A stretch of 64,000 nt of DNA from Onthophagus taurus. Its lineage: Eukaryota; Arthropoda; Insecta; Coleoptera; Scarabaeidae. Shown piece after piece: positions 15-41,100 of the stretch; within the stretch, counting starts at the first letter, position 1; the number at the start of each line of letters is the position of its first letter. The DNA lies in assembly GCF_036711975.1 (NCBI RefSeq), contig NC_091971.1:193501-257500 (forward strand), in the 5' to 3' direction. The position numbers and the translations under genes were made by a program. The notes beneath the pieces were generated by a model that saw only the letters and a list, made by a program, of their open reading frames with translations, had not been told where the DNA came from and did not search any database.

Positions 15-3000
15 ATGGCATCACGCCCTATAAAATACATCTCGCAATCATCGATTTCTTTTGCATCCGCTTTATCGGACAAAGTAAAAAGCACGTTTTC
101 CATACATTTACATTTAAAAGCATATAGAAGATTATTTTACCTTGTTGCTGAACCAGTTTGGTACATCAGTATCCTTTTGTTTAATTATCTGGCCATTATT
201 GCTATAATTTTCGCCTCATTAAATGGAAAGTGTATTCATGACGAAGATTATAGAAAATACAATATTAATCGTAAGAAGTATTTTTTATGTATTAAAATAT
301 AAGTTTAAAACAATTTTTATTGTAGTTGTTATGTATATTTTGGATTTAGTTTATTTGTTGGATATGATATTGGTGATTGGTTGTAAACTTTTACCAAGTT
401 TTGACTTAATTGATGTCGATGTTGTTCTTCGTCCTTATTACATAATCAGTTTGGAATTAATTTCTATAATACCTGTTGAATTTTGTATACCAACAAGTTC
501 AACATTGGGAGCAAGGGTGTTTTGCCTTGTAAAATTAGTGAAAGTTTTAAGGTTTGCAAGAATTTTACATTTCTTTGTAACCCATCGAAATTTAATTGGC
601 AGTAATCTTTTTACGCGGATTATCGCTTTGATAGCAATGGAAATGGTTGTTATAATGCTAATGTACACGGTTTATTGTAATATAAATTGTGCAACCGGAT
701 TTTGCGAAGACAATAATTGTAATTCTCCAAGAATTATTGTTTTAATGAGCTCCGTTGTGATGTCGTCTGGTCTTTCAAATTTCGCTTACCATTTCAGTTG
801 GAGTTTAATAAGCATTTTTGGCATGTTAATAAGTTATTATTTGATTTTTATTTTAACATTAAGCGAGATTGCTTTTGAATTTTTTCAAAAACACATTCAA
901 GGCGTTTCTTTCGCAAACACTTACAATAACGTTATTGTTAAACAAAAAAAATGGAAATCTCCGAGACATTTGCAACAAGCGACTCGAGTGTACTTTAGAA
1001 ATGTTTGGAAGGATCGTCGGGGTTATCCCGAAACGAATTTTGCGGATGAAAATTTACCTTATTCGTTTAAAAGTGAGATGATGATTGATGTTTCTTGGCT
1101 CGCATTTCAACATTCGCATCTTTTCAATAAACAACCTTTGCCGTTTTTAAGGGAAATTTCGAAATATATTAAACAAGAATTTAAATTACCCGGTGAAATG
1201 ATTTATAAACGAGGTCAATGGAAAGATAAAATGATTTACATCGTTTCAGGAACTCTTCAATTATTATCGGAGGAAGATGGAGAATCGCCGATTTTATCAT
1301 TAACCAGTGGTTCTTGTTTTGGAGATTCTTGCATGATTCGAATGTATCCATCAAGAAATAATGTTCGTTGTAAAGGATTCGTTGAACTTTATACATTAAA
1401 AACGTGTGATCTTATTCGGTTGTATAAAAAATTTTCTGAAGATCTTTCAGTTTGTAAAATTGATATCAAATGGAGATACAAGCAGGCAATGAATTTACAC
1501 GGAATGGTTTTGGAAAGTAAACGGAGAATGCATGGAACTCCGCGACATTTAGACATTTACAATTTGTTGTGGACGAAGAATACTTTACACAAACACATGT
1601 CAAAAACTAGAGAATCAATGCGAAGACATCGCTTCCAAAATATTTATTTAATAAACGAAACGAATCCGCGCGATTTTAAACAGATGCATTTCACCGCTTA
1701 CTTTTTGGACACCCTGGCGATTACTGAAAGATTAGAAATTGAAACCGATACGGTTTTTTTGAAACATTCGTGTCCTTGTATTTTGCAACCGGATTCTGTC
1801 ATCGTTTATTTTTGGGAGTTTTTTGTTATCGTCGTTACCCTTTTTGTGGCATTTTTAATACCTCAGAAAGCTTTTATAAGAAACGTCGATGTTAGCTGGT
1901 TACCGCTCATTATGTTTATATGCACTTTTATTTTTTGTTTTGATATTTATGTGCAGTTTTCTATTGGAATTATTTCGAAGGATGGCACAAAAGGTAAAAC
2001 AATTAAACAGTTTCATAATACTACTCAATTACATTAACAATTAAACATTTTAATAATACTCAGAACAATAATACATCTCAGCACGTATTACAAAATTAGT
2101 TACCCGTGTGAAGTTACCCATAAATTCCATCCATAAAAAAAACTTTTTTGTTTGTGTATCGATTTTAATGATTAATAGCTCATTAGGAAGATCTCGTAGA
2201 GTAGAGCCTAACACAGTTTTGGCGGCGCAGATTTTGGGCGGGAACACCTTAAATTCCGCGAAAACAGTGAATTATAAACTGACCGGCAAAGAAAACCGGC
2301 CACTATAAATTTGCCGCAACTTCAAAGCTGGCTTTCTCGCGAAACGCGCATTCGATTTTGATGATTCTTTTTTTGATGGAAAAATTGATTCTTCTGTAAT
2401 AATCCTGCGATAGAAATTTTCGTTCAGATTTGAATTTGGGCATATACGGGGTGAGAAAAATGAGAAAAACTTTTATTCTCGAAATTTGTAACTCCCTGTG
2501 TGGTGCAGCTGCTACAGCAGAGGGTATTACCTGGAATCAAACAGTAGCCCAATCCTTTCTGAGCATTTTCTTTTTTTATTCACTCTATTATCTCTGTTAC
2601 TAACGAAGATGCAGTATTTTAAAGCGATCGCCTGTGAAAACAAGATCAGTGACAATAGTAGCTGATGACCGTTTTATTGTTCTAAGCAATCGTAGAACGA
2701 CAGCTGTAGAGCCTCGGCATCATCTTCAAATGGTGCGTGTTGTTGATGTCAGTGAGAGAACCATTCGCTGAAAACTTGCTAGAACTGGTCTGGCTACAAG
2801 AAGGCTGCCAAAGGGCCGAGGCTGCTTCCTAGATATCGACATGCGCGCTTACATGTGAATTGGGAGATGGAGCAATGGAGGAATGAGTCCGTCCTTTTTA
2901 CGGATGAGTAGTGGTTTTGTCTACTATCACCCGATAGTCAGGAGCGAATATGAAGATGTTGAAATGAAAGATTTGTGGACTATGTCTGGTTCTGTAATGG

Positions 3001-6000
3001 TGTGGCCGGGAATTTCCAAAGAAGCCTATACAGATTTTTAATCATTGTTAAAAGTGGCGCCTTAAATCACTGACCTTGAAAACTAAAACTGGGCACCCGA
3101 AACAGTTTTGCAGAAGCACTTACATTTCTTAGAATTACAGAATTGCAGACGTCCTTCATTATTGTAAACATCTGTTCTCAGTTCTAATATGCGGTAAAAA
3201 CAAAGACAAATAAACAAGAAAACAAATTTAATTTAATGTAATAATTAATAATAACACGAAAGTTAAAAGCGTGTGTGCCCCCCACGAGCCAAAATAACGT
3301 CATGTAATCGACGCGGCATCGAACTGATTAAGTTCGTAATTGATTCCTGAGGCATTGCGGTAAACTCTTCGTCAAGAGCAATTCGTAACTCCTGAAGGTT
3401 GTCCGGTAGGACAGGACGACGACGAATGCGTCTCTGAAGTTGGTCCCAAAGATGTTCGATAGGGTTAAGGTCCGGACTGCACGCTGGCCACTCTATCCGT
3501 TCAATACCCACCTCATCAAGATATTCGCTAACCACACGTGCTACGTGCGGTCGCGCATTGTCATGCATTAGCATGAATCCGTCACCAATAAAATGGGAAT
3601 AGCGCACGACAGCTTCTTGCAGTATATCTTGGATATAACGGTGGGCATTTAGCGTGCCATTTTCAACACAGATGAGCGTCGAAATACCGAACCTCCATGG
3701 AAAGGTACTCTTTCCGAAATTGTGCAGGTCGCAAACCTTTCATTACGACGTCTCTACACTGGTTCTCGACCATCAGGTGACCGGAGACAAAATCGGGACT
3801 CGTCAGTGAAGAGCACCTTACCCCATTGTTCCATTTCCCAATTCGTATGTAGGCGCCCATATTGAAGACGTTCTCGCCGATGTCTCTGGAGCAGCCGCTG
3901 TCTTTTGGCAGGTCTTCTTGCAGTTAGATCACTTTCAGCAAGTCTTCGACGAATGGTTCTTACGTCAACCCCACGCACCATTAGAAGACGATGCCGAGTT
4001 TCTACAGCAATCGTTCTACGATTCTTCAAAGTGTTTAGCACAATAAATCGATCATCAACTGCTGTTGTTACTCGTCTTCTAGGCATCCTGAACTGTTGTT
4101 CGGGGTATACCCAACGTATGGGTAACGTACCGCTGACTTTTGCCATCTTCAATTAAACTAATAATACGCGCAACATCAGTTATTGACAACGGCATCTTTG
4201 ACAACTGTCAATTTACTATTCGAAACAACTGACATACGCTACCTAGCGCGCCACCTTAGATTTTGTATGCTTGTTTGTCCTGTTTTCACAGGCGTTCGCT
4301 TTAAAACACTGCATCTTCGTTAGTAACAGAGATAATAGAGTGAATAAAAAAACAAAATGTTCAGAAAAGATTGGGTTACCGTTTGATTCCAGTTAACACC
4401 CTCTACTGTGGTATCTGCACCCCACAGGGTATTACAAATTTCGAGAAAAAATGCTTTTCTCATTCTTGCACCCCGTATATGCTCAAATTAATATCCGAAT
4501 AAAAATTTCTTTCGTAGGATTATTACAGAAGAATCAACCTTTCGATCAAAAAAGGAATCATCAAAATCGAATGAGTGGTTCGCGAGAAACCCAGCTTTGA
4601 AATTATGGCAAAATTTTAGTGGCCGGTTTTTTTGCCGGTCAGTTTATAAAAAAAATCTCTAAATTTAGAGTCCCAAAAATTGAAAAGTAATTAACATAAT
4701 ATCAGGTATGATTATCAAATCAGAATGCGTATACTGTCTTCTACACAAAAGTGAATTTTGGTCGTCGCTAAATCATATCGGTAATTAGAAAAGTGCAACA
4801 AAGCACGAACCTGTTTCCAGACGTACGTGACGCTAGGCGGTTCTTTGAAAAGCAAAATCATCTCCATAAGTATAACTGTTTTGTTAATTGTCCGATTTTA
4901 ATATGTGATACCTTTTTGGAAAGGGCTCGTCCTGTAGATCATGTCATAGTAATGGCGGCGCGAAATTCTAACAATAATTGGGTGATTAAACGATTAAAAC
5001 CGTTATAAATAATTATATTCTTAGTCCTTTAAACATTGTTAGTAACTGTCCCACTTTTAAAATAAGTAAAAACACAGTATATTAATAAAATACTATAATT
5101 CATTATTATTAACGACAAGTCAACTGTATATTATATAATTTTTCTGTAAAGATAATAAGTATCTAAAACAATTATTTACAAAATGAGATCAATTAAACAA
5201 AATTGTATAAGTAATCAACTACTAAAATCTAATTTAATTGTAGTTACATTTAGTTGCTACATTAAATTGTATATAAAAATTGATGGCACGTTTTTATTGT
5301 ACCGTATAGGGCCGTTACCCTCAATCAAATAGAAAGATAGTCATTCAAAAAATCAATAAAGTATGTAAAAATAGAAGGATTGGTAACATTTTCAGATCCT
5401 AAAAATGTTTCATTTTTGCAATAATTAATATTAAAATTCAAAATCCCCTGTATAACAGCTTTGGTGACGTTTGCGAGGTTTTCACTTACGATCAAGAAGA
5501 TCAGACAAAACGTGAATCGTTCGGATCTCTTCTTCTAGCGCATAAGATTCTCGTGGCATCTCGGTCATGCACCTTTTATTGATTTTTATTTCAACCAACC
5601 GCGTGCGAAACGACGGTGACGTATCCAAAGTTTTTTCAAATTTTCATTATTTTTTTTTTTTTGAAAAACTAAGGCCCAGTTTGAAAAATAAAAAGTTAAA
5701 AGAAGTCTTCAATTTTGCTAAACTATCGAATAAGCCAATAGAAAAAAGAATGTGTAACATGGTATCATGGGCCATCTAAGAGCATTGCTTGCATTTGAAT
5801 TCATTATGAACCTCTTCAGCGAAATAGAGACATTTTTCCTTTAATGAGTCGGAGTTTTTTTTAATAAAGTTTCAATAATGATGTTTCTGTATGAATCTGC
5901 ATTTAAGGATTTAAATGGTTTATTTGATAACATACAGTCAATCAAATGACAGACAAGAACTCCACAATTGTATCAATCTGCTTGTAAAGGATAATCTAGT

Positions 6001-9000
6001 TTTGGAAATTTGTTTTAAACGTTCCTGGCTGTTGTTAAAGGTCGTATTTTCATACTGTGAATTGTATGGTAATGGATCGCATTTCGCTCAACTCTCCTCT
6101 GGCACTTTGTTTAACTTTTCGTTTATTACACATCTCGTAGTAAGTTATATTTATTAGTTATTAGTTAGTTACAGACAATTAACAAAAACGTTATATTTAT
6201 GGATATGATTGTTTATAACCTTTTTAATCGTTTAAATACCGTTATTGTTAGAATTTTGCGCCGCCATTACTATGATATGATCTACAGAGATCCAAATCCA
6301 CGAGATCTTTCTAATGAGCTATTAATCATTAAAATCGATACACAAACAAAAAAGTTTTTTTTATGGATGGAATTTATGGGTAACTTCACACTGGTAAATT
6401 AGTTTTTGATTTAAAATTGATATTATTTTAAATAATTAATTATTTATTTTTAATTTTAGGAACATTTAAGATTATAGCAAAAGAAAAAATGAATACATGG
6501 GGATTTTGGGCAGACTTAATGTCATGTTTCCCCATGGAAGTATTAAAATGTATCGTATACGAAGACAAAAACGATACTCGAGCGACCGTTCTATACATAA
6601 ACCGTTTAATAAAACTATGGCGTATCGAAAAATGCTTATTAAACCTCGAAAAAAGATTTAACACCAACATATTTATCATACAATTTTTCCGTTACCTTTG
6701 GACATTAATTTACGCAATTTATTTCTCATATTGTTACTTACACATGGCGGTTAACGTCGAAGAGATCGAAGACATCCCCAAATACGAGATATTATTTACA
6801 GCCGTTCAGATTATAACCTTAACGGGGATTAACGCCGGACGTCAATATGATTCGATAATCTTTTTTTATTTGAACATAATTTCGTTGATTATAACGATAT
6901 TGATGCAAGCACATTTTATAGCAGCTTGTACTTTGAGTAATTTAAAACATATTCAAATTCAGTATTACGTGAGAACGATTTATGAGATTTTCAAATCAAA
7001 ACCGAAATACATTAAGAGGATGCGAAATTATTTTAATACCCAATGGGAAGATAACCGATGCGAAAATATATTAAAAAGCGTTAATTTAATTTATGAGTTA
7101 CCGAAACATTTACGAGACGATATGTTTTTATACGTTTCAAAAGATAGAGTCGGAAATTTAAAATTATTCCAATATTTACCAAAATCGATTGTTCACGAAA
7201 TGTGTTCGAGCGTTTTAAAATATAACATTTACTCCCCGAATCAATTTTTAATCAAATCGGGGGATATTTCGAGGATGGTTATTTTAGTTTATGGCGGAAT
7301 AACTGAAATTGTCGATTCTTTTGGAGTTCTTCACGAATTAGATTCTCGACCTTACGCTGTTAATTTCGTTGAGGCCGCTTTAAGGGCACCATCGGCGGGG
7401 ACGATAATTACGTCGACTAACGTAAAGGTGTTTTATTTTTATATCGATGAATACGAGGATGTTTTAAAGAAACATTACGATTTATGGAAAGATTATGAGG
7501 TGGCGATTAAGAAATGTGCCGATTTAAGAGGAAAGTGTCGCGAGATTTGCGACGAAGAGAGAGATATTAACGTTATTTTTAAAGAAAAAGTGAATGAGGG
7601 AAAATCTTGGCATAAATTTCCTCATAATATAGTTAAAGATTCTTATTTGGAATACGACTTTTTTATCCCCTACGATAAATTATACCCGTTTCACGGGTTA
7701 AGATATTTTTTGTTACGAACGACTTTTTTACCCGAAGGGAAATTTTTGTTTTATTGGGAATGTTTTCGGTGTTTATTTGCGTTTATTGCTTGTATAATAT
7801 TTTTTTCAACTCCATTCATTACGCGGTATGGAAATTTAACGATTTTTTTGGATTTAACGTGTTTGGCCGATATTTATGTTAGATTGCACGTTTGTTATTA
7901 CAACGAATATGGTGTTTTAATTTATCACCCGGTTAAGACATCGAAATATTATTTAACTCACAGTTTTGTTATTGATTGCTTAGGTTCTTTGCCGTTTGGA
8001 TATTTTTCAACGTTCGACGCATTCGGGTATTTCACGTTAAATTTTCCGAGGTTGTTTCAATTGTATCGCTACATCGGGTTTATGAAGTATTTGAGGAAAG
8101 ATCCGACGAAATCATCGTATAAATTGATTGGATTTCTTTATATCCCTTTATGCTTGGTTATAATAAATTTATTGGGCGCTTTTATGGTTACGGTTACTTG
8201 TGTGAGAGAAATTGGTACGCAAATGTGTTTAGAATCGATAATGATCGCATGCCCGAATAGAAAATGGTTTAACGACGTGTTTATTTATGTCTCTGGTATT
8301 TACGTTACAGCAACATCTTTTATGAATTTCGGAATGGGCGTTTTCGATTTGCGAAAACGCTTTCATTATTATTGTATTGCAATTATTTGCGTGGTGGGGT
8401 TGTTTTATAAAGTTATTACAGTTTCAAAACTTCTACCGTTATATTCGTTTCGCCAACAACGCCTTCTTAAGTACCAAGAAGAAATGAAATCGCTAAAATT
8501 CTTTTTAAAAACAATCAACACGCATTTTATCCTCAAAAAGGCGATTTTCGATTTGTACAAATTAAAATGGGATTTTAATCGGAACCGCGATATTCATAAA
8601 TTAACCGAAATCATAATCGGAACATTACGCACCGATTTAATTTACACATATTATGGTGATACTCTCTATCAAAATTGCATTTTTGATTACACAAAGAAGC
8701 GATCTTTTTACCGCAACTTTCTAAATTTGGCCAAATACGAGTGTTACCCACAAGATGGTTATATCTTAACAATAAACGATGTTTCCGACTCAATTTATGT
8801 TTTATACACGGGATCCGTTGATGTTATAGCGGCCGATGGCTCAATTATGGCTCATTTAAAGCCGGGGGGTTTTTTCGGAAATCTAAATCAAATTAATTTC
8901 GAACGAATTAAAGTTAGCGTTATTGCGATAAAACCAACAGAAATTATGTGCGTACGCACAGAACAATTTTATAACCTTTTAAATCAATACCAAAAAATAA

Positions 9001-10517
9001 AATCGCAATTTGACGAGTTACGCTTAAAATACATTTGTTACATCCCATCGAATAAACAAGACGTTTTAAACATAGTTTCAACAACGAACGTTAAGGCGAA
9101 ATGGAAAAAATTAAAATCGAATAAATTTATTGATAAAATAATAACTTGGAGGTTATTATCGTTGTTTTATTGTTGTTATTTCGCGATTATTTTGGATTTG
9201 TATCAATTCGGCGCTTTAGATTATACAATTCCCATATTAACGCTTCAATATATTTCTGATTTAATTTATATCACGCGGGTTATAACGATAGGCATGTTAA
9301 TTTATTTGAAAGATTTTATTATTGGAAGTTTAAAGGGGAAATTAAAAGAGAAATTAATCGAATTGAAAAATAAAATTTTCCAAAAAAAGAATACAAGCGT
9401 GATAATTTCAATGATTAGTTTAATTCCAATTGATTTATTAATTTTGTATACGATGAACAAAGAATCGCTTTTAATGCACATTCTTTTTAGTACGTTTCGA
9501 TTAAACCGTTTACTTAGATTATTAAATTTGCGCGATTTTTTCCGCAAAATCAAAGCGACGGTAAACACGAATGTAAGTTTAGTGAGAATTTGTTATATCA
9601 TGTCTTGGTTATCTTTGGTGTGGATGCTTTTAACATCAACTATTTCGTTAGCATCTTGTGCTGTACCATTTAGTATTTTACCTCCACTTCCGGTTTGCTC
9701 TTATCTACTTAAAATATCATCCTGGGAGCGTTTTGAGTTATACATAAAATATTTTAGTTTAGTTTCAGATATCTTAACTTTCACAGGACAACATAATTAC
9801 ACCCCACAACACGCAGCGCTTTTGGCTGTGTTTATTATTGCGAAATTAATTAGTTTGTTTTTGTTGGCGATTTGTTGTTCGCAAATTTTTTGTATTGTTA
9901 AAGATTGTAGTCAAAGGAGAATTTCTTATCGAAATTTTGGTAAACGTATACAAACGTTTTTGCGTCTCGAAAATGTTTCTATCGCGCTCGTTGATCGCAC
10001 GATGAGATATATTGAGTTGCTTTGGATGAGAAGTAAAGGATGTAATTATCCGGAATTGTTAAAATCGGCCCCTTTATATCTTCAAGATGCGATTTTAAAC
10101 GATGCTTATCATAAATTAATCGGATTACATCCGATTTTTATTCATTGCCATAGAGATTTTATTCGACAAGTTATTCAAAAAACAAAGACTAATATTTATT
10201 TCAACGATGATTACATCCAATTTAAAGGATCAATTTCGACGAGTATGTACTTTATTTATAAAGGAAATGTAAAGGTTTTTGAAGAAACCCCAACGCACGA
10301 TGTTAAGATAAAAACTTTGAACGCCGGGGAATCTTTTGGAATCGTCGAGGGGCTTTATGGAAAAAAGAAGCATTCGTATACTTTTCAAGCGGATGGAACC
10401 GTTATTGTTGTTAGCTTGGAATTTGAAAAGTGGGGATTTCTTTTGGATTTTTTTCCTGCTAGTAAAGTTCGATTGTATAGTATGGCTATGGATTATATTC
10501 CGAATGAAAAAGTGTAA
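15..10517 (+). CDS. Four-repeat (pseudo-tetrameric) HCN/CNG-like ion channel, 1993 aa
   Basis: Three exons join in frame: 15-270, 326-1993 and 6460-10517 (introns 271-325 and 1994-6459, both GT-AG). The predicted membrane protein has four channel units. Unit 1: S1 ~47-68, S2 ~87-107, S4-like ~148-169, pore ~220-241, cyclic-nucleotide-binding-like domain (CNBD) ~373-460. Unit 2: S1 ~577-598, S4-like ~682-702, pore ~750-773, CNBD ~895-985. Unit 3: S1 ~1070-1094, S4-like ~1170-1189, pore ~1244-1268, CNBD ~1406-1490. Unit 4: S1 ~1537-1559, S4-like ~1652-1673, pore ~1739-1759, CNBD ~1884-1971. HCN/CNG channels are normally tetramers of single-unit subunits. Here one chain could form the whole ring (inference). 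No pore carries GYG. The CNBD phosphate-binding signature is decayed: FGD in unit 1, absent in unit 2, FGN in unit 3, FGI in unit 4. The ATG at 15 has a good context (AAAATGG), but the frame stays open to position 1, so a start further upstream is possible. Ion selectivity and ligand cannot be told. Confidence 0.85.
271..325 (+). other. Short intron 1 of the four-repeat channel gene
   Basis: The donor GTAAGAAGT (271) and the pyrimidine-rich acceptor ending TTGTAG (325) are 55 bp apart. Removing the intron joins the S1-containing frame to the S2-containing frame at phase 1, without a stop. This fits the compact introns of insects. Confidence 0.75.
2093..2101 (+). repeat. 9-bp target-site duplication, left copy
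   Basis: AAATTAGTT directly precedes the left terminal inverted repeat. Confidence 0.75.
2640..2990 (+). pseudogene. Decayed 5' half of a second Tc1-like transposase copy
   Basis: A plus-strand translation with stops gives DDRFIVL, then a stretch like TTAVEPRH and VDVSERTIR, which parallels the N-terminal part of the minus-strand copy at 4152-3754. It is in the opposite orientation to that copy and has no catalytic C-terminal half. Confidence 0.6.
3263..4152 (-). pseudogene. Tc1-like DD34E transposase, frameshifted
   Basis: This is cut-and-paste transposase remnant of the Tc1 family. The 5' part (4152-3754) carries the HTH region and ends with the first catalytic aspartate in LFTDESRF. The 3' part (3607-3263) carries the second aspartate in MHDNARPH and the glutamate in SPDLNPIEHLW, with 34 residues between them (DD34E). 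The two parts are in different frames, so a frameshift or deletion lies at 3608-3753 and the copy is inactive. Confidence 0.85.
4656..6300. other. Interior of the Mutator-like element, no gene recognised
   Basis: AT-rich DNA with only short open frames. It contains the partial inverted copy of the element's subterminal sequence (4931-5020). No transposase motif was found. Confidence 0.5.
6396..6404 (+). repeat. 9-bp target-site duplication, right copy
   Basis: AAATTAGTT directly follows the right terminal inverted repeat and is identical to 2093-2101. Confidence 0.75.
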
Positions 10518-10523
10518 TTTAAC

Positions 10524-10529
10524 AATAAA
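10524..10529 (+). promoter_or_regulatory. Polyadenylation signal of the four-repeat channel gene
   Basis: AATAAA lies 6 bp after the TAA stop. If it is used, the 3' UTR is very short. Confidence 0.5.
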
Positions 10530-12093: not shown

Positions 12094-12126
12094 TAGATCA
12101 ATGGTTGGGAAGAACTTATTCAGGTA

Positions 12127-14370
12127 GTGCGGGAGGCAACACTGAAAAGGGAGTGTGTACGTAGGGGCGGCAGAGTAGGGAGGAACGACTGGTATGATGG
12201 CGAGTGTAGGAAGGCGAAGAGGGAGGCGAGAAGGAGGTTGAGGCAGTGGAGACGGGGTAAGATAGGGGTGGATAGATATAGGGAGGCCAGGAGAGGATAC
12301 AGAGAGTTATGCAGTAGAAAGAAAACAGAACTGAGGGAGAAGGAGGCGGCAGAGATTAGAAGAATAACAAGGGAAGGGGAGGTCTGGAGGTATCTGAAAA
12401 AGAGAAAGAATGGTAGGGAGAGGATAACTAGCGAAATACACATGACAGTTTGGAAGAGTTACTTTATGGGATTATTGGGAGGGGTTGAAACGAGGCTAAC
12501 GGGTTTGGGAGGCTATGACGGAGATGGGGGAGAGGAGATAGCAGAAGAGGAGATGGAAGCAGTGCTTAGGGGATTGAAGAAGGGAAAGGCGCCAGGGGAA
12601 GATGGGATCCAGAACGAGGCATGGTTGGAAGCATCAAGGGTGGTGAGAGTGAAGTTGTTGGAGGGGATGAATAGCGTATGGAGAGGGGGTGGGTTTCCGG
12701 AGGGATGGAAAGAGGGGGTAATTTACCCAGTATATAAAAAGGGTAATAAGGGAAGGGTAGAGAGCTACAGAGGAATTAACCTACTAGACTCGGCATACAA
12801 GGTATACACGAAGATACTGCTGAGAAGACTGGAGGAGGGGATGGAGTTGGGGGGAATTTTGCCGGATGGGCAAAATTCCTTTCGGAAGGGAAGGGGAGCA
12901 ATCGACAACGTGTACGTGTTGAAGCATCTGGCAGATAGAGAGCTGGATAAGAAGGGAGGGAAATTGTACGCCCTATTTATAGATTTGAAGGCGGCTTTTG
13001 ATAAGGTGGATAGGGGAAAGTTGTGGGAGGAGATGGGGAGGACGGGGATCACGGAACACCTAATTGCGAGAGTGAAGGAAATATACATGGAGACTATGGC
13101 TAGGATAAAAGTGGGAGATATGCTGAGCGACGGGTTCTGGACGACGAAGGGACTGAGACAGGGATGTCCGCTGAGCCCAAGTCTGTTTGCACTGTATACG
13201 GCGGACCTGGAGGATAGATTGGGGAAGGGGCAAATGGGAGGGTTGGTGGTGGGAGGTAGAAAGGTGCATATGTTAGCATACGCGGATGACATCGTGGTCA
13301 TGGCGAGAGAAGCGGCGGAGATGAAAGATATGATAAAGACATTGGAAAGATATTTTAGGGGGAAGGGGCTGGAAGTGAATGTGGGGAAGACAAGGATGAT
13401 GAAGTTTTGTAAGGGTGGCAGAAAAAGAATAGAAAACTGGAGATGGGAGGGAAAAGAAATCGAGGAGGTTAGGGAGTATGTGTTCAGGGAGGACAACAGG
13501 GAAGGGTCGCATGTGATAGCTATGGCAAAAAAGGCGAATAAGATGATGGGACAAGTATGGGGTTGGGGGAAGAGAGTTTTTGGAAGGAATGTGGCAGCGA
13601 GGAAGATTATGTTTGAAGGCCTGGTTAGCAGTGTGATGATGTATGGGGCAGAGGTATAGGGATGGAGAGAGCAGGCAATGCTGGAGGACGTGCAAGCTAG
13701 ATACTGGAGATGGGTGCTTGGGGTGACGAGAGAAACACCGGGGTATATAGTGAGGGAAGAGGTAAAGGTGGATAAGGTCAGAGTGGATGCGGGCAGGAAA
13801 GCAGTGAAATATGAAGAAAGAATAGAAGGGAGGCCAAACTGCGGGATCTTGGGGGAGTGTTGGAGGGAAATTAGAGAGGGAAAGATCAGATATGGGAAAG
13901 GAGACAGAGACAACTATTATAGACGAGCGGGCTACTCGGTAACTGAGATAAATAGTAGACGAAGGGTGGGTAGGGAGATGTGGAGGGAGTTGAGAGATAG
14001 GGACCGAGATGTGCAGAGACAGGAAAGAAGGACACAAATAAAAGAGGGGAGGTATAACGAAAGGTACAGGGACATAATAACGGAGGGGCTGCCTAGATAC
14101 TTGTTATTGGAAGGAGATGAGGAAGGGAAGAAGTTGGTGGCTAGGTTCCGTTGTGGAAACGAGGAGAGAGCTAACAGATACTGGATGGCCGATGAGGAGA
14201 TATGGTGTAGGCTATGCAGGGAGGAATGGGAAACGTTGGAACATATGTTGAATGGGTGCAGTGAGTTGAGGGAGGAGGAGTTGGACCGAGGGCAGATCTT
14301 AGGAGAGGGGGGAGATGGGAAACGATGGATGAGAATGGTTGTGGGGGTAAGGAGACAAAGGGAAGGATGA
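12127..14370 (+). pseudogene. LINE reverse transcriptase with one internal nonsense codon
   Basis: One frame runs from 12127 to 14370 and is interrupted by a single TAG at 13657-13659, where the family usually has tryptophan (context YGAEV-stop-GW). RT motifs seen are GKAPGEDGI, SYRGINLLDS, IDLKAAFDKVD, LRQGCPLSP and the catalytic YADD. The C-terminal part has C-x2-C-x8-H-x4-C near 14205-14262. The frame is otherwise intact, so the inactivation looks recent. Confidence 0.85.
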
Positions 14371-18600: not shown

Positions 18601-21600
18601 CCATACATGGACGTCAGAGGCTAAAAATTTTTAATTATTACTTATCGGAAAAAGATAAAGCAAATTTTCTTGGAATTTATGCGAAACTATGTAAGACATC
18701 ATTGCAAAATTGATCATTTGCATCTTTTCTTGATGAACACTCAGTTATCGTAAACCTGAGTTACATCTCAAAACTTGTTTGGCCGAAATAAGCTACTGCT
18801 GAAAAAATCAGTCCTCTTCACAAAGGTTTTGTATAAAATAAAATTCTTTAGTATGTAAATATGCGAATGCTTTATTTTCTGAAACAATTTGGATTTTCCT
18901 GAACTAAAGAAATTTTAGTTTGAAATCCTAAGAATTCTTCTTAGATCGTACAATTTTTGACAATGATGTTTTTACCAACTAAAAATAGAGACACCATAAT
19001 ATTTCTGTAACGCATCAACGTTTTTACACTGTTGGAAATAATTCACGAGCACACCCTGTATAACCTGAACGCGTGTGTCTAGCGCAATAAAATTTGGTAT
19101 GGAAGTAGTACTAAAGTAGTGTAACTTACTCTCACATGGAGAGCGGCACAACTCTGCTGGGAGGAGAAACATCAATAGCGAGAGTATCCCCCGTGAGCTT
19201 CGCGTACCATCGCTACACGACGTGGCATGGAGTCTATAAGTCGCTGTATTGTAGCGAGAGGGATGGCCAACCATGCCACCTCAACTCGTCTCCATAGCTC
19301 CTCAACGTTAGCCGGAGGAAGCCGGATAACGTAGAAGTCTTCGACCAGTCATGTCCCAAACATGTTCGATCGGATTCAGATACGGAAACCGAGCTAGCCA
19401 TGGAAGCATTCGTATACGGTGCTCTTCCACAAAGGTCTGTACAACACGCCCGATGTGCTGTCGTAGATTGTCGTGCATGTATAGCAGACCTGGGAGCCGC
19501 CGAACGTAGGGAAGCACAACGGACCGTAGCACCTCATCTACGTATCGTTGACCCGTCATGGTCTGTTATACAGGCAGCAGACGTGTACGTCCACCATATG
19601 TAATCGCATCCCATACCATAATGTTCGGTTGTCGGTGGATAGGGTGTTCTTGCACACACTGCTCGAATAGACGATCACCACGGCTCCGATGAACTAAAAT
19701 TCGCGCATCACCGGTGCTCAATTCGAATCTTGATTCGTCGGAAAACAAAATGTCCCTCTACTCGGCAACCTACTAATGCCTAGTATCGACCCACACGTGA
19801 CGTATGCTGCGGTGCTCGGGTGTTACTGGAATCCGCTGTATCGCACGACGCGCGCGCAGTTACTATCAGATCACTATCTACCAAACACCGCAGTACAGTT
19901 CGCGTAGTGAGTGCGCCTTCCCCTGCCGGTGGCCAAACAGCTCAAAGTTACCTTGAGGAGGACACACACGACGCTAAAGCGCTGAGCACAAGAGTGCGAT
20001 CCTCGTGTGTTGGGAACGCGGCTGAAGGTACCTATGTCCTACCTCAGACCATTCTCGCCATGCCCGTTGCACTGCCGATAACGACCGCTCGAGAGGACGC
20101 GCAATTTCACAGAACGATACACCCTCAATGTGCATACCCACAAACATTCCTCGCTCAAACTCGCTTAAGTAACGCGATCGCCTATCCATTGCGCACAGAG
20201 TACGATAACAACGTGGTCCATCACACCACACTAAAAACGACTGGTATTTTCCATCCACTTCGGTCTCCATAGCGACGGAATGTTCCACTTGGAAAGACGG
20301 CTCAGTCAACAATGCCGCGACGGAACAACTCGAAACTCCCTGAATAAACTCGTCTACAGTAAACCTTCGTGCCCCGCAAATATTATGGATTTATCTTCAC
20401 GCGTTCAGATTATATAGGGTGTGCTCGTGAATTATTTCCAACAGTGTATTTTCTTAGAACCTAGCTGCAGATGTCAGTTACTACTTTTTGGACATAAACG
20501 AAAGTATTTTCTGCATTGCTTGTTCTCAATCGTCTCTGTACTTGCTCTTTTAAAATAACATCAACCATAACAGTAAGGTAACAGTAAAGTAACAGTACAC
20601 TATTGGAAGGAGGATGAGGAGAGGGGTGCAGACTATATGGGGAGAGCTGAAAATCTATAGATCATCTGCTGGTGGAGTATAATGAGTTGAGGGAGTAGAT
20701 GATGAACTGGAGGCAGGTGCTGGAGAGAAGGCTGATAGGAAGAGATTGAGAAACTAATTAAAACCTTAGTTCCACCCGAGTTCTTCTGCTATATTTATAC
20801 ATCTGAGAGCAAAAGTGAAAGACAGCAATATTGTTAAAAATAAAATTTTGTGCTAAAAGTTTTTCTGTAATATGTCCAAATCCCGTGTTTTACCATTAAC
20901 AACTAATAAATTCATTTAATTATCGCAATGTATTCCTATACCACAACCTAATTATTTTTTTTTTAAGTATATCACGTTTGCTTTCTTGATTTTGAAAACT
21001 AACGAGCCTGTTACGTACACATGTAAACGACGTCCCGAAGGTAGATTCGACCAGATTTACAAATGTCAGAAATAATTGGACCCGGTACGATATCTTTGCA
21101 AAATTAAAATTAAAGAACACAGTAAGCGAAACCCAATTTGGCTCAGTTTGGTCAGTTCCTCTGACTGTAAATGGATTTCAATGGTAGACAGTTTAAAAGA
21201 AAAGGTAGAAACGACTCGACATTACGAAATAATTCTTAACCCATTTATGTAGGTATAAAAAAAAACGTATTGGAATCAATAAGTCTAGGAATAAGAATTG
21301 AAATTGAGAAAGATTTGTTTTGTAGAAACGAAAATTTAAATAAAAATAATAAAAATTGGAATGTGAAACGTTATGTAACAATCATCCTTTTCAAAATCCG
21401 TGTGTATAATACGCATAATAAGCGGTTTTTGCGTTAAGCCTCAATTAAAATACACTCATGGCAATAAATAAACTATCCCGGATTTGAGAAACCATAAAAT
21501 CGAAAGTGTTAAAACATTAATTTTATATTTTTTTATTAGCCTTACGCACAAATATTTATTAAATTTCGAAGTTTATATTAATGTTTTAAATCAATTTATT

Positions 21601-26051: not shown

Positions 26052-29000
26052 ATGTTAAAAACACCAACGGTAAGTTTTTCTTCAATAAATATATTTAGAA
26101 GATAGACCAAAAAAATTCTTCTAAATTTGTTTAAATTTTTAGACCTCTTTAGGTAAACATGTATGCACAGTAACATTTATCCCAGATGACCTACTAATGT
26201 TCAAACGTTCAACCAACATCATGGTAAGATTTAAAAGATTTTTAACCCGCTCAAGAATGGCCTCGCAAACACACCCAAGAGGAAAATCGATTTTAGACAG
26301 CTATTATTGTTACGTTTTGGAGCACAGAAAACAATTATTACACATTTGCGTCATACATCCTTTCAGTAACTTTTAGTAATCAACATAAAAACGTTACAAT
26401 TCTTTTATTAAATTATATATTTTCTAGTTTAATTTGGCAAGGAATTATGACAGTCGTATTTTACGCCCAATTCTTAATAATCCCATTAGAAGTATCCTTA
26501 TTCGAATATCATTATCAACAAAGTGAAACGCAGAAACGTATGGATTTTACGATTCGGTTCGTTTTGGATATGACTTGTCTTATGGATGTTATTTTACGGT
26601 TTCGTGTTGGTTATATTGATCAAAATAAACAAGAAGTTGTTTTAGTACCAAAAAGAATTGCTTTGTGAGTTTCAATCAAGAAAGAATCTGTTGAATCTAA
26701 GAGGACTAAATACATCCCGGGAATAGGTGTACAGGGGCTGTTATTATAGGCTATCTCAGAAACTATAAGAGATACGAAAAAAGTAGGTGCCATGTCCCGG
26801 TCTCTTTTTTCGAGACTAACCCAATCCCGCAAACACCAAACCTCTATCTTCTTTTGTTTTTTAGTTATAGCCAAAAAGTCAAATTTTCGTGATTTCAAAA
26901 AATGCTCATATTTCGTTTATTTTTGAAATTAGAGGAATGAGGTTGATATGTTCTTAAGACACTTTTTTAAGTAGAATATACTGCCGTTGAAAAATTTTAA
27001 AAATATTTGATTATTTTTGAGATACAACACAAAGTTGTATTTTTTTAAATACAAACTATAGTAAATTATGGTGTTACTGAAAAGAGCATATTTTTAGCTT
27101 TCCAATGATGTATTGCACGCATGGTGTATTTGGGGAAAATAAGCGTTATTTTTTCCCTGTTGGGTGAAATCATGGATTTGGCGAAGAGCTGGGTGTCAAC
27201 AAATATCAACATTCGTTGTCAAATTGTTAGTTATTTGGCATACTGGATTCACAAAAAAGTGAACTCGATTGCTTTAATGGCACTTATAAATGCAAACTAT
27301 AAGTTTATTGTCGTACACGTGATAGCTTAATAGTGGCTTGGCAGTATTTTGGAAAATTATTAGAAAATATAAACTTAAACGCCTCAATTGCTGTAAGAGA
27401 CTAGATATTGCTGGCAGAAGACTAAGTACTACTAATGAAAGACTAGATGTTGCAAATGAAGCAGATTCTTCTTACAGAAGACTGCACACTACTACCAGAA
27501 GACGAAATACTGTTGGTAGAAGACTAGATATTGCTGCAAAAGATTAGATATTGCTGGCAAAAGACTAAGTATTGCTAGTGAAAAACTAGATATTGCAAAT
27601 GAAGCACATCCTTCTTACAGAAGACTACACACTACTACTAAAAATCAAATACTTTTAGCAGAAGACTTAATTTTACTGTCAGAACACCAAAATATGTTGT
27701 CAGAAGTTACTATTACTAATGGTACAAATCCCGTTTAAATTTCTGTCCAATACTTGTTAAAATTGCATCCTTCGCTTCCCGATTTCTATGTTCATTAGAT
27801 GTGATATTCCAAAGAATTGAATTTTCTTCATACACTTCAATTAATTCAAATATTTCTTCTTGGGACTATTTTCTTTTAGGTGTTATCTTTAAACGTGTTA
27901 TATTGAGAAAACTCGCAGGAAAATTCGAACCTTGTTTGGTTTTTGACAGTTACTCTCACGATAGATAAATTGTGCGTGTCCACTTGAGTACAAATCTCAA
28001 CGTGTTTACTCTCCGAAAGTTTGTGGGGACTCTCTGATAGTTACTCTCAGATGCGTGTCCACCAGAAAATATACTCTCGATAGCTTCTCTGGAGAGCATT
28101 TCTCGCAAGTGGACACTTAGCTTAATGGTACAAGACCAACTTTCTGTCATATTCGTGCAATTAGGTAGTAATTACTGTCCGAACCCGCCTACTATAATCA
28201 AAATTTTGAACTTTAGCGCTTACTATTTTGGAATTGAAAATTAACGCTTATTTTCCGCAAATGCACCATACATGCGATACATCATTGGAAAGCTAAAAAT
28301 ATGCTCTTTTCATTAACATCATAATCAAGTATAGTTTGTATTTAAAAAAATACAACTTTGTGTTGTATCTCAAAAATTATCAAATATTTTTAAAATTTTT
28401 CAACGGCAGTATATTCTACTTAAAAAAGTGTCTTAAGAACGTATCAACCTCATTTCTCTAATTTCAAAAATAAACGAAATATGAGCATCTTTTGAAATCA
28501 CGAAAATTTGACTTTTTGGCTATAATTTAAAAAGAAAAGAAGATAGAGGTTGGTGTTTGCGGGATTGGGTTAGTCTCGAAAAAAGAAACCGGGACATGGC
28601 ACCTACTTTTTTCGTATCTCTTATAGTTTCTGAGATAGCCTATAATAACACCCAAATTTGCCCACAGGGTGTCCCAATTTCGATGTCCGCATAGGCTATC
28701 TCCGAAACTAAAAGAGATAGAAAAAAAGTAGCTTATTTGTCATGATCTCGTTTTTCGAGAAAATGCTAATGCCGAAAACTCCGAACAGCTATCGTCTTTT
28801 GTTTTCGCCTTATCGGCAAAAACTGAAAATTTTGCGAAAACGACAATCGCGAATATCTCACTTATTATCAAAGATGGAGTATTATAAATAAAACATTATA
28901 TGGGTAACTTTTTAAGAAGAATTCAGTGGCGTAGGTAGAATTTTTTTCCCATCTTTTATTTTCGAGATTTTAGACGTAACTTTTTTTTTTTAAATGGAAA

Positions 29001-31852
29001 CCATAGTTGGCTATGACTTAAAATAATTTGTTATTTTCTTCTGATAACAAATATATATAGTTTGTGGGGTATATTTCTTATAGTTATTGAATAATTAACA
29101 AAAATTCATTTTGTTCCATCTAAATCTAATGTATGTATTTAAAAGTTAACGTTGCTATGGTGATAACTATACATACTATGATGGAATATAATGTATCAAT
29201 TTTTTTTGTTCTTTCTAAAACTATTGTATGTATTTAAAACTTAATGTTGTTATGGTGATAACCATACCATGAGGGAAAACATTGTTTCCAATTATTGGCA
29301 AAGTTTGTAGCAAGGACAGTAGAATCTAACAGGACTGCTACATCCATTGTATTTTTGTAGTCGACTATGGGTTGGTTGCCTGCACTCTACGTCACACTAT
29401 TTGCCACGCCTGGTAGATAACTGTCTATGTTTTTAGAGGTTATATGATAGACATTAATACCTCTAAAAACATAAAACTTCAAAACTAATATGAATACGTC
29501 TAGGATATAACCTCTAAAAACACACAGCAAACGCATAGACCATAACAACAGCTGGGCGTGGAAAATGGTGTGACGTAGTTTGCGGGTAGGCTGTCACAAC
29601 AATGGATGTAGCAGTCCTGTTAGATTTTATTGTCCTTGAGTTTGTAGTAGTATTTAAAAATTCACTAACAACTCTGGCATTATGTGCTGGTGCTCCGTTA
29701 TATTGAAAATATATCATTTGAGACATATTTAGTGGCAAATTGTCGACTAAAGGCTCAATGTGCTGCCTTAATATATTGAGGTATTTCCCTGAGTTTAAGT
29801 TTTTATGGTAGATACTATATGCCAAAACTCTATTATCTAAAAGGGCACACCATACAATGAACCCCAATCTTCTTTGAACACTCAGAGACTTCATCGGTCC
29901 AGATGACGTTTTGAACAAACAGCAGATTATTTAATTTTTCTAAATATCATCTACACAATTTTAATCTTAGATTGACATCTCCGGCACGTAAATAATGAGT
30001 TAGCCCCGCTTTGTATGGTTTATACTTATTTTTCTTTCATATTCGGGAGCAGCGGCTTTTGGGTGAGACGTCTTGTTGCAATTTCTCTTGCAGGTCATTT
30101 TGGTATGTTTTTGTATGTAGTTTGGGGAAGGACCAAATATCCATTAAATTTTCTGCTAACCGGCTGAAGGTTCTTACGTGTGGTTGTCTTCTTTCTGGAT
30201 ATCTTGTGAAATAAAATTCCGCGGCTAACGTCGCATTCTTATCTGATAACATCATGTTACATTTTTCATAATTTTCGAAATTCATTGTAAAGTTTTATTC
30301 AGTTTTGTTATACTTTGACACTTAACACGCTGGTGCATAATGCCAGCACATAATGCCAGAGTTGATATCGAATTTTTAAATACAAACTTTGGCAATTATT
30401 TGATACATTATGTTCCATCATAGTATGTATGGTTATCACCATAGCAATAGGGCGAAAACAAAAGACGATAGCTGTTCGGAGTTTTCGGCATTAGCATTTT
30501 CTCGAAAAACGAGATCATGACATGTAAGCTACTTTTTTTCTATCTCTTTTAGTTTCGGAGATAGCCTATGCGGACATCGAAATTTGCCCACCCTGTACAG
30601 TTGACTGAGTCATTTTCTATAGATTCTCAACATCTCTCTTCTGTAGATTCAGTCCTTTTAGATTCCACCGTCCTTTTGTTTAAATTATAAAATATTAATT
30701 TGTTTAAATTTTTTTAATTTTAGAAAATACGCTTGTGGATTATTTATTTTTGATTTAATCTCATCATTTACCTTCGTACCACATTTAATATCAATTCATG
30801 ATAAATTACGTCAACGCATAAAATATCTTGGATTATTTAAATTATTTCGCGTCTTTACATTTGCAACTTATTGTAAATACATTGGCCAATTTTTCAAAGT
30901 ATCCTTTATGACACACGGCCTCTTCATGTTAATCAGCGTCTATTTACTTTTCGTGCACGTTGTAACCTGTTTAAACATCTACGTGAATACGATCAACGAA
31001 AACAAAGAACACGAACTTTACTATTGGCGTTTAGAGGAAGTGTACGATGATTATATCACGAATTACGGAAGAAGTGTTTATGCGACGTTGAAAATGATTA
31101 ATTATTTAGATTATGGTTTTCATGATTTGAACAATTTTAATCGGACTTATATGATTATCGTTTGGATTATTTGTAAAATTGTTTATGTTTGGTTGATTTC
31201 TTACATTATGAAGTTTGTGATTAATCGAAAAACTTCAAGTGTTATGTACATGCAGTTATTAAGGGAATTAAAAGAGTATATGAGACATAAACAACTTCCC
31301 GCTCGATTACAAAACCGTTTGATGTCTTATTACGAATTTCATTTCCAAAAATGTTATTTCCGCGAAAGTGATATTCTACCGTCGATGACCAAATCTTTAC
31401 GCGATGAAATTAATCGTCATAAATGTATGAAACTCGTTGAGAATGTGGTACTCTTTCGCGGAATGCCTTCCGGGTTATTAATCGAGATCGCATCATGTTT
31501 GCGTCCCCAAGTTTATATGATAAATGATGTTATATTTAAATACGGTTCTAAAGGAGATTGTATGTATATTATTGCAACTGGTTGCGTTGCTGTTTATGGT
31601 CAAAAGGGTAACGAAGTTTGTCATTTAAAAGATGGACAATTTTTTGGTGAAGTTGGATTAATGGCGCGGGGAATTAGATATGCATCGATTGTTGCCGTTG
31701 AAGTGACGGAATTGTATGAATTATATCATAAAGATTTTAGAACAGCTTTAGAACCTTATCCGGCAATTTACGATCAAATGGTTAATATGGCTGAAGAAAG
31801 GAAAGAAGCGATGAAGATTATACAAATGAAAAATCTTATTAAAAAAGTTTAA
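26052..31852 (+). CDS. HCN-like cyclic-nucleotide-gated channel, single unit, 538 aa
   Basis: Four exons join in frame: 26052-26069 (MLKTPT), 26143-26375, 26428-26664 and 30724-31852, with donors GTAAGT, GTAATC and GTGAGT and acceptors all AG. The N-terminal block before S1 ends HPFSNFYLIWQ, which parallels the HCN-specific motif at the start of S1. S1 ~86-108, S2 ~126-145, S3 ~165-184, S4-like ~190-212, pore ~282-300, S6 ~304-325. The C-linker has the HCN-type LPARLQNRLMSYYEFHFQK. The CNBD keeps FGE (470-472) and the RGIRYAS phosphate-binding arginine, so cAMP binding is likely. The filter reads DYG (292-294) where HCN/K+ channels have GYG, and S4 has fewer charges than classic HCN. At 538 aa it is shorter than canonical insect Ih. 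Transport properties are unknown. Confidence 0.9.
26729..28660. mobile_element. Inverted-repeat element A in the HCN-like intron
   Basis: The left arm (about 26735-27160) is the inverse of the right arm (about 28236-28650), sharing GGCTATCTCAGAAACTATAAG near the ends and GCATATTTTTAGCTTTCCAATG inwards in shifted form. No transposase is recognisable. The interior holds a 21-bp minisatellite. Confidence 0.7.
27395..27700 (+). repeat. 21-bp minisatellite (AGAAGACTA... units)
   Basis: About a dozen imperfect ~21-bp units of the type AGAAGACTAGATATTGCTGGC occur in two higher-order blocks (about 27400-27540 and 27545-27690). In one frame each unit would encode a heptad such as RRLDIAG or RRLSTTN, but the frame has stops and no gene context. 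Confidence 0.65.
28665..30595. mobile_element. Tc1/mariner-like inverted-repeat element B
   Basis: The ends CAGGGTGTCCCAATTTCGATG (left) and CAGGGTGGGCAAATTTCGATG (right, inverted) share about 150 bp of arm, including ATCTCGTTTTTCGAGAAA and GACGATAGCTGTTCGGAG. The right end is followed by TA. Minus-strand transposase remnants lie inside. Confidence 0.7.
29514..30285 (-). pseudogene. Decayed transposase of the DUF4817/DDE type
   Basis: The 5' piece (30285-30037) resembles the helix-turn-helix entry domain (AAEFYFTRYPERRQPHVRTF). The 3' piece (29918-29514) has RRLGFIVWCALLDNRVLAY and YNGAPAHNARVVSEFLN, the latter at the second catalytic site with the usual D changed to N. The C-terminal catalytic part is not recognisable. 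Confidence 0.65.
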
Positions 31853-38119: not shown

Positions 38120-41100
38120 TCAATTAAAATGAAACCTAAACTGAAATGGACTTCCTTGAAACGAATGGAAATTGTGGAAATTATTGAAATTTGGCATCCC
38201 GCTTTTTCCCGATTCAGGATCTAATGGATCTTCGCCGTTATCAAACTGTCTTCGTTTCTCTTCGTCTGTTAAAACTTCTTTAGCGGCTGCAATATCAATG
38301 AATTTTTTTTCTGCAACCTTTTTCATTTTTTCATCATTTTGATAATTATCCGGATGCCATTTTTGTGCTTGTTTTCGATAAGCTTTTACAATTTCTTTTT
38401 TCGATGCGGTTCTTTTCACTTCCAAAATTTTATAGTAATCCCTTCTTTCAGCTTGTTGTTGTAATTTTTGTGCTTTCTGTTGACCTTCTTTAGCCCGCTC
38501 GTAATTTTGATCGACTTCTAAGGCCGATTTAAAATCTTTAATAGCATCATCATACAATTCCGATTGCAAATAAGCATCGGCACGATCACAATAAACTCCA
38601 GCATCTAAATTTGTATTTAAAGCATCCGTACAATGTTTAATTGCCTCGTTTATTTGTTCATCTTTCGAATAACAAGCGCAAAGCAACCGATTCCCTTCAT
38701 AAATAATCATCGAAATATCGCGTTCATTTTTCAATACCTTCAAAGCTGACGCAATACATTCACCATAATTTTTTTCCTCCAAATATTGTTCAGCCTCCGT
38801 TAAAAATTTTTCAATTTTTTTTAATTTCTTGTACAACGGAAAACAATCTTTATGTTCAGGATCTAATTTTAAACATTCCCGAATATATTTTAAAGCGTCC
38901 GTAGCGTGACCAAGTTGATATAACAAATTTGAAAGTTTAAAATATCCATCTACATTATCGGATTGAAGTTTCGAAGCTGTTTTTATATCACTAACAGCGG
39001 CTAAAATATCGTTATTTTCCATTAAAATTTCCGATCTTAATTCGTAAAGGTGTGAAGCCCATGGACTTATTTCAATTACTTCGGTTAATAGTTGAATGGC
39101 ACTGTTGTAATCGTTATTACCGTAATAGTAATCTGCTAAGCGTTTCTTTTCGGTTGCTGGTTCGATTTTTTGAATTAATTCGTTAGCCTCAGGGTTGTAG
39201 GGATCTGCTTGTAACTAAAAGAATATACAGGGTGATTTATAACATACGGAGGAGACTAAATGGGTAGGTACTTGAGGTCAAACTGAAGAGATTTTCTTAA
39301 TAATGTTTTGTTAAAATCTTAATAGTTACATAGATACGCATGTTAATTTTTTAAATAAGTTACCGTCAACTTTTGGGAACCGCTGATATTCACTAAAGAA
39401 CAATTAAAATACTTGTCAACGCCATCCTCATTTTTGAAGGAGCTGTCAAAGTAGACAATTTAATTGTTTAGTTTTAATACGTAATTTATGAAAAGAAATA
39501 ATAGATGTTAATTTATGAAACAGATAATAATAATGTTTTAAATGCAAAATTACAAAATCTCTAAAACAAGAAAATAACATAATAATAATAATAATAATAA
39601 TCTCGTTATAACATATGTTCAAAGTGCTGTCCTTGCATTTCGACGCACAACTGCGCACGACGAATCCAATTTAACGATAATCGTGGAAATCGTGGACGTA
39701 TGTCCTCTATAGCGGCAGTGATGCGATGTCGTAGTTCGTCGATTGTATTAACCTCGGTGGCATATACTCTATCCTTCATGAATCCCCTTAAAAAAAAGTC
39801 CAATGGGTTAAGATCGGGACTACGTGGTGGCCATGGAATAGGTCCACCTCGACCAATCCATTTTTGCCGAAAAGCATTATCGAGGAAATCTCGTACATTA
39901 CGACTAAAATGTGCAGGACAACCGTCGTGCATAAACCACATCTCACGTCGCATAAGTAGCGGAATATCTTCCAGGAGTACTGGTAGATTTTCTTGTAAAA
40001 ACTGTAAATAAGAAGTTCCATTAAGAGTTCCTGGTAATTCGAAAGGTCCTATTAACGTATTGTTCACAATTCCCGCCCATAGATTCACTCTGAATCGTTG
40101 TTGAAAAGAGCCTTGACGAATAACGTGTGGATTTTCGTCCGACCACACATGGGAATTGTGAACATTTAGAACACCATTTCTGGTAAAACAGCATTCATCC
40201 GTTACCAGTATACTGTCCGCAAAATCTGCTTCTCTGTTGGTACGATTTAGTAGCCACTCGCAAAATTGCAACCGCAAAGGATAGTCAGCGGAAGTCAGTC
40301 CTTGCACTTTTTGAAAATGATAGGGGTGTAAACCGTTACTTTTCAACGTACGCCAAACAAAATTCTGGGATACCTCGAGTTGGTGAGAAATTTGACGAGT
40401 ACTCGTGCTTCGATCCGCTTCCACAATTTCTAGAATTTCTTCTTCCACATTCACTCCATGTCAGTTTAGTCTACCGCCACCAAGACCTTTCTTAGGTTGC
40501 AAATTTCCTGTCTCTTTTCCCCGTTGGATTAACCGAAGAAAAGTGTTTTCAGAAGGGATCTGTCGATTTGGATATCGTTCTAAATACAGACGTCTTGCGT
40601 GTGCAGCGTTTTCTCCAGTAGCTCCATAAATAATAAGCATATCTACGTATTCTTCGTTACTGTACATTACCATTGTATTTTTTGATTAGTAAAAATTCTA
40701 ATTTTGACGTTAAATGACATTGATTATTAAAATTAAATGACATGTCCGTTGCTAGGTAACCAAGTCAACTGGATTGACAGCAATAAAAACATGGTATCAG
40801 CGGTTCTCAAAAAACAAACACCAGTTTTTGAGTGATTTAACAAATTTTTAAATAGCCGTAACTGCCATATTACAAAGATTTTATTATTGGTGCAATCAGG
40901 CATTGCTTAAGTAACCCCGAAATATAATAGAATTTAAACGTAGTGTAATACCGTATATCGTAAGAAATGCTGGGCAATTAATTCAACTTTAATGCTCTAT
41001 ATCTTTGTGATTATTACGTTGTAGTCAAAACATTATTAAGAAAATATCTTCAGTTTGGCCCCTAGTACTTGCTCTTTTAATCTGCTCCGTATGTTATAAA

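Follow-up and report, generated by a model that had tools for sequence, protein, structure and literature searches.

Does one gene of the scarab beetle Onthophagus taurus encode four channel units with cyclic nucleotide-binding domains (CNBDs) in a single chain and, if so, where did such a gene come from? The question is raised by the gene at positions 15-10517 of a 64,000-nucleotide stretch of contig NC_091971.1 (positions 193,501 to 257,500; NCBI RefSeq assembly GCF_036711975.1), the whole of which was analysed and is called the window below. The initial annotation had described three exons, four HCN/CNG-like units and a channel built by an insect lineage itself. We found good support at the DNA level for a CNBD-channel protein with four units in a single chain, which is very probably encoded here. 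The product is probably a fast-evolving pseudo-tetrameric protein, with a selectivity that is only predicted from sequence.

The proposed gene structure could be reproduced. Exons at 15-270, 326-1993 and 6460-10517 on the forward strand join in frame to 1993 codons plus a stop, with GT-AG introns and a stop-free coding frame. Exon 1 begins with the ATG at 15 and carries the N-terminus and the first of six membrane segments (S1 to S6) of unit 1; exon 2 carries the remainder of unit 1 (S2 to CNBD), a linker and S1-S2 of unit 2; exon 3 carries unit 2 from the S2-S3 linker onward, the complete units 3 and 4, and the stop codon. For intron 1 (271-325, 55 bp), ten stop-free options were available, and this one was picked for its GTAAGA donor and whole S2; other choices would affect no more than the S1-S2 part of unit 1 and the precise number of codons. 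In exon 3 there are 1,351 sense codons and no stop, compared with a longest stop-free run of 65 on average and 139 at maximum in 200 mononucleotide shuffles of the same exon.

Because each of the three unit junctions lies within a stop-free exon, the fusion of the units is independent of any splice guess, and splicing matters just inside unit 2. At the junctions, the coding frame has no stops and the other frames have 6 to 11. These observations bear on a reading artefact in which two to four separate genes have been merged. Such a merger would be favoured by a gene read from DNA and by AATAAA motifs, which occur throughout this AT-rich stretch (one, at 10524-10529 on the forward strand, starts 6 nt past the stop). 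However, no stop interrupts any junction, and unit 2 bridges exons 2 and 3, which links the first unit with the last two. We therefore set separate genes aside and regard an artefact of this kind as very improbable.

The remaining splice, across intron 2 (1994-6459, within the S2-S3 linker of unit 2), is well supported on two counts. First, the alignment of SthK to unit 2 crosses the join of exons 2 and 3 (query 59-463, domain E value 3e-7); the HCN1 match ahead of the pore in this unit is weak when taken alone (E value 0.21). Second, the intron of about 4.5 kb is a 163-bp intron enlarged by one DNA element. This inverted-repeat element of 4,294 bp (2102-6395) is flanked on either side by AAATTAGTT, a perfect 9-bp target duplication; its arms as reported lie at 2087-2200 and 6297-6410 (93%), and it holds a DDE_3 transposase remnant on the reverse strand (3266-3739). 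As the length of intron 2 is explained by the insertion and the junctions lie inside exons, the production of separate proteins is unlikely.

Each unit had its own best phmmer match among PDB sequences: SthK for unit 1 (15-1490, residues 1 to about 474, split by intron 1; E value 2.3e-13), HCN1 for unit 2 (1792-7445, residues 575 to about 970, split by intron 2; 8.1e-9), KCNH1 for unit 3 (7746-9005, residues 1071 to about 1490; 1.6e-12) and CNGA1 for unit 4 (9138-10475, residues 1535 to about 1980; 5.4e-17), all units reading on the forward strand. CNGA1 also aligned to unit 1 over query 76-456. A joint profile of the four units matched CNGA1 (5.2e-43, residues 198-591) ahead of HCN1 (2.9e-33, a difference of 32 bits) and KCNH1 (1.8e-29), and SthK was matched as well. 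Each unit was also compared with five reference channels, and none of the 20 pairs had an E value worse than 3.3e-8 (calculated for five sequences). The controls were far weaker, at 0.0095 for reversed sequences and 3.8e-4 for the best of 200 shuffles (the four units and the neighbouring gene, 40 each).

By this homology over S1-S6, C-linker and CNBD, the four predicted units are members of the CNBD-channel superfamily. The expectation that profile hidden Markov models would find four channel units was thus borne out as far as four remote units match CNBD channels and three of four match Pfam cNMP_binding; it was not for Ion_trans, which appeared in 0 of the 4 units at E values up to 10. Hydropathy with a cut-off of 1.3 made all six segments visible in unit 1 only; the six segments per unit were assigned by homology, and the pore loops by position only. 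When the six-frame translation of this window (2,012 frames of at least 20 residues) was searched with a unit profile, it revealed no further unit above the HMMER inclusion threshold except the known exons, the neighbouring gene and its exon at 26297. Relatives were also sought in contig collections that are viral or prokaryotic and have little bearing on insects: none was confirmed among 11 (query P0001) and 1 (second exon of the neighbouring gene) pattern-matched stretches in viral contigs, or among 131 in genome contigs (query part of exon 3).

What kind of pore would such a protein form? The predicted filter regions are MSSVVMSSGLSNF in unit 1 (745-783), QIITLTGINAG in unit 2 (6807-6839), TATSFMNFGMG in unit 3 (8307-8339) and DILTFTGQHNY in unit 4 (9768-9800). 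With motif columns placed by hand under HCN1, CNGA1, KCNH1 and SthK, the filters of units 1 to 4 read SSGLS, LTGIN, NFGMG and FTGQH. None of the four is GYG, GFG, TIGE or CIGYG; the nearest is GMG in unit 3, which retains G-x-G. At the position of the CNG glutamate, the same kind of hand alignment placed no acidic residue in any unit. The suggestion of an HCN- or CNG-like pore is not supported by these filters, which are neither GYG nor TIGE. HCN channels have a long S4 that is rich in lysine and arginine and has a central polar residue; in hand-chosen windows, S4 contains 5, 6, 5 and 7 lysines or arginines in units 1 to 4 versus 8 in HCN1, and unit 4 has the S4 motif RLNRLLR in common with CNGA1.

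The ligand side is similarly uneven. In CNBDs, the acidic residue of the phosphate-binding cassette has a role in ligand binding. The arginine of the cassette is crucial for it (PMC4749565). Unit 1 has acid and arginine, the latter with a one-residue gap, whereas unit 2, whose cassette is the most altered of the four, has the acid and lacks the arginine. The acid is missing from units 3 and 4; the arginine of unit 3 stands one place off, and unit 4 has lysines.

Together, these features suggest how the protein might work. The locus would give rise to a single chain of about 1,993 residues with four tandem units, each of S1-S6, pore loop, C-linker and CNBD. Like the repeats of CNGK, Nav and Cav channels, these units may be arranged about a common axis to form a pseudo-tetramer; the subunit order would then be fixed. 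The 5 to 7 basic residues in S4 point to some voltage sensing. Four unlike, non-canonical filters would line the central pathway, so that neither ordinary GYG selection of K+ nor a CNG-type pore is to be expected and the pore would be poorly selective, novel or non-conducting; we give ion conduction an even chance. If a cyclic nucleotide acts at all, unit 1 would be its likeliest site, because it has the sole CNBD with acid and arginine near the expected place, and units 2-4 may be structural. Gating via one CNBD has a precedent in the third repeat of sea urchin CNGK (PMC4749565), although nucleotide control via unit 1 stays a tentative proposal. A specialisation of the units, as initially put forward, is consistent with the 16-21% identity of units 2-4 to unit 1, the unlike filters and the unlike cassettes.

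Several points weigh against a pseudo-tetrameric channel as outlined here. The gene model is read from DNA alone, and codon-position composition was uninformative (RNY, that is purine-any-pyrimidine, 0.20-0.37; an unsteady signal in third-position GC content). Upstream of the ATG at 15, the frame stays open to the window edge; the N-terminus may fall outside the window, and the true start, or even another unit, may lie further upstream. The glycines of the filters were placed gap-free in units 3 and 4, and at an offset of two in unit 1 and one in unit 2. That unit 1 only may keep the ligand-binding arginine is a weak claim, as its columns were set by hand. The changes in the filters and in three or more cassettes are so great that the protein may no longer conduct or respond to a ligand. 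Finally, the units 3 and 4 modelled with AlphaFold, from input alignments of 5 rows each, had a mean predicted local distance difference test score (pLDDT) of 51.4 and 52.8, mostly below 50 in the membrane part, so the pore lacks structural support. The C-linker/CNBD was the sole partly credible portion of both models. CNBD channels were listed by Foldseek for the unit 3 model (best E value 2.1e-12), a match that bears on the CNBD alone because the template modelling score is 0.27 over the model.

Another reading is a relic, in decay or unable to conduct, in which selection has ceased to act on pore and CNBDs. Filters, cassettes and Pfam signatures are eroded, and the unit branches, at about 2 substitutions per site, are the longest in the tree described below. 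Against this stand almost 6 kb of coding sequence without stop or frameshift and consensus splice sites, and a protein that is functional yet non-conducting would be possible too. We consider such a relic quite unlikely.

To trace its origin, we compared the four units with the neighbouring gene and the five references in a tree of 10 rows and 427 columns, in which the references differ in extent, CNGA1 and CNGA3 are without S1 and no CNGK sequence is included. The tree was poorly supported. Without constraints, units 3 and 4 grouped together (43% bootstrap) beside CNGA, and units 1 and 2 stood apart. Branch lengths, in substitutions per site, were 1.95 to 2.32 for the units and 1.64 for the neighbour; those of HCN1, KCNH1 and SthK were 0.8 to 1.0, and those of CNGA1 and CNGA3 0.1 to 0.2 past a stem of 0.76. 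Constrained trees fitted under LG+F+G4 were not rejected by the approximately unbiased (AU) test, neither with a single clade of units (p 0.255) nor with a CNGK-like pairing of units 1+3 and 2+4 (p 0.134). Pairwise Z-scores among the units were highest between units 1 and 2 (12.7) and lowest of the six between units 1 and 3 (2.9), and each unit had a higher Z-score to CNGA1, SthK and KCNH1 than to any fellow unit. As all units are nearer to these channels than to one another, a recent fusion of copies of one unit is not favoured.

Two origins have to be weighed. The protein may descend from the ancient CNGK (tetraKCNG) family, having diverged strongly and lost the GYG filters. In the parts of the literature examined, CNGK is the sole four-repeat, six-transmembrane CNBD family named, and it has been reported from a choanoflagellate, sea anemone, sea urchin, acorn worm, amphioxus, tunicate and fishes (PMC4749565, PMC7576140). 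Given this wide range, four units would not have to be fused a second time if the protein descends from it. Single repeats with an altered CNBD are already known in CNGK, and the pairing of repeats 1/3 and 2/4, which together form one clade in CNGK (PMC7576140), is among the arrangements that the AU test did not reject. In contrast, the Z-scores speak against this pairing, because unit 1 is nearest to unit 2 and furthest from unit 3, and GYG or GFG, reported for CNGK pores, is absent from all four filters. We rate descent from CNGK just short of an even chance.

Alternatively, CNG/HCN-like units may have been duplicated and fused separately in this lineage. Some 16 kb further downstream, in the same orientation, lies a single-unit HCN-like gene (26297-31852; exons 26297-26664 and 30724-31852, with the 5' end not fixed), and unit 3 is the unit most like it (BLAST E value 8e-8, Z-score 16.7); the preference of the four-unit profile for CNGA1 over HCN1 also fits such an assembly. 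The second-exon open reading frame of this neighbour matches HCN1 at 3.5e-31, so that it is clearly HCN-like, whereas the four units are not. Its filter is NYLDYGFHD where HCN1 has LCIGYGAQA, and its cassette retains acid and arginine. Further evidence against a separate fusion is that the unconstrained tree does not unite the units in a single clade, that all of them resemble CNGA1, SthK and KCNH1 more than each other, and that intron 2 and the neighbour's intron are about 8 residues apart and in different phase by hand count. A separate fusion is possible, if somewhat doubtful.

A channel built by the insect lineage itself was not borne out in a poorly supported tree that tolerates the CNGK-like pairing, and diverged CNGK descent is at least as possible as independent insect assembly. 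Unlikely, in our view, is the most far-reaching version: the independent assembly of a second four-repeat CNBD channel, with four unlike filters, an asymmetric pore of a selectivity new among CNBD channels, and gating via one ligand site in repeat 1.

The rest of the window contains further genes and mobile elements. The 4-kb intron of the HCN-like neighbour (26665-30723) appeared repeat-rich by eye. A reverse transcriptase frame lies at 12097-13656 on the forward strand (RVT_1, 9.5e-35); frames just upstream resemble the zinc-knuckle and endonuclease parts of what is presumably a non-long-terminal-repeat element. Remnants of Tc3-type transposases were found at 19974-20390 and 39609-40460, a TPR and DnaJ protein that we take to be DNAJC3/P58IPK-like at 38123-39214, and a GDP_Man_Dehyd fragment (1.9e-8), presumably of a UDP-xylose synthase-like gene, at 43301-43708, all on the reverse strand. 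A PA-domain frame (46431-46889) and a partial RING-domain frame (51946-52383) on the forward strand are perhaps exons of one PA-RING gene of the RNF13/Goliath type.

How does the protein compare with known channels? For the four-repeat layout, CNGK was the right precedent to name. CNGK channels (sea urchin, Ciona, zebrafish sperm), best known as potassium channels of sperm, likewise have four six-transmembrane repeats with CNBDs per chain, some of the CNBDs being altered or non-functional, but their pores are GYG or GFG (PMC4749565), in contrast to 0 of 4 here. Sea urchin CNGK is gated by one cyclic GMP at repeat 3, while repeat 3 of the present protein is without the expected acid and arginine; zebrafish CNGK is gated by pH, and its repeat 2 is without the arginine (PMC4749565). 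As the present protein is predicted to have the CNGK layout yet no CNGK filter, we do not assign it to CNGK. Two-repeat tandems in protists (PMC7576140) also join several CNBD-channel units, partly with reduced CNBDs, but with two repeats and TVGYG filters or close variants. In the accessible parts of the literature, four CNBD-channel units per chain are described for CNGK only; we found no insect or arthropod example in the open literature, where the species list of PMC4749565, known in part, may include insects. A 2018 review sees the repeats of CNGK as not obviously specialised (PMC6259924); here, the four filters all differ and probably no more than one ligand pocket is intact.

Animal CNG channels share the top match of the four-unit profile (CNGA1) and the S4 motif of unit 4, but their subunits are single units with a TIGE filter, as opposed to four units and no TIGE. 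HCN channels belong to the same superfamily and have the same segment order; however, CIGYG is missing from all four units, there are four units per chain and the profile score to HCN1 is below that to CNGA1. If the pore conducts, its selectivity becomes the question; if not, a channel scaffold would be in other use. The four-domain Nav, Cav and NALCN channels, which have no CNBD, resemble the present protein in having four non-identical pore loops per chain and differ in that, by hand alignment, its filter position is never occupied by an acidic residue. The locus may thus offer a natural test of what a fixed subunit order permits and a CNBD counterpart of the asymmetry of Nav and Cav channels.

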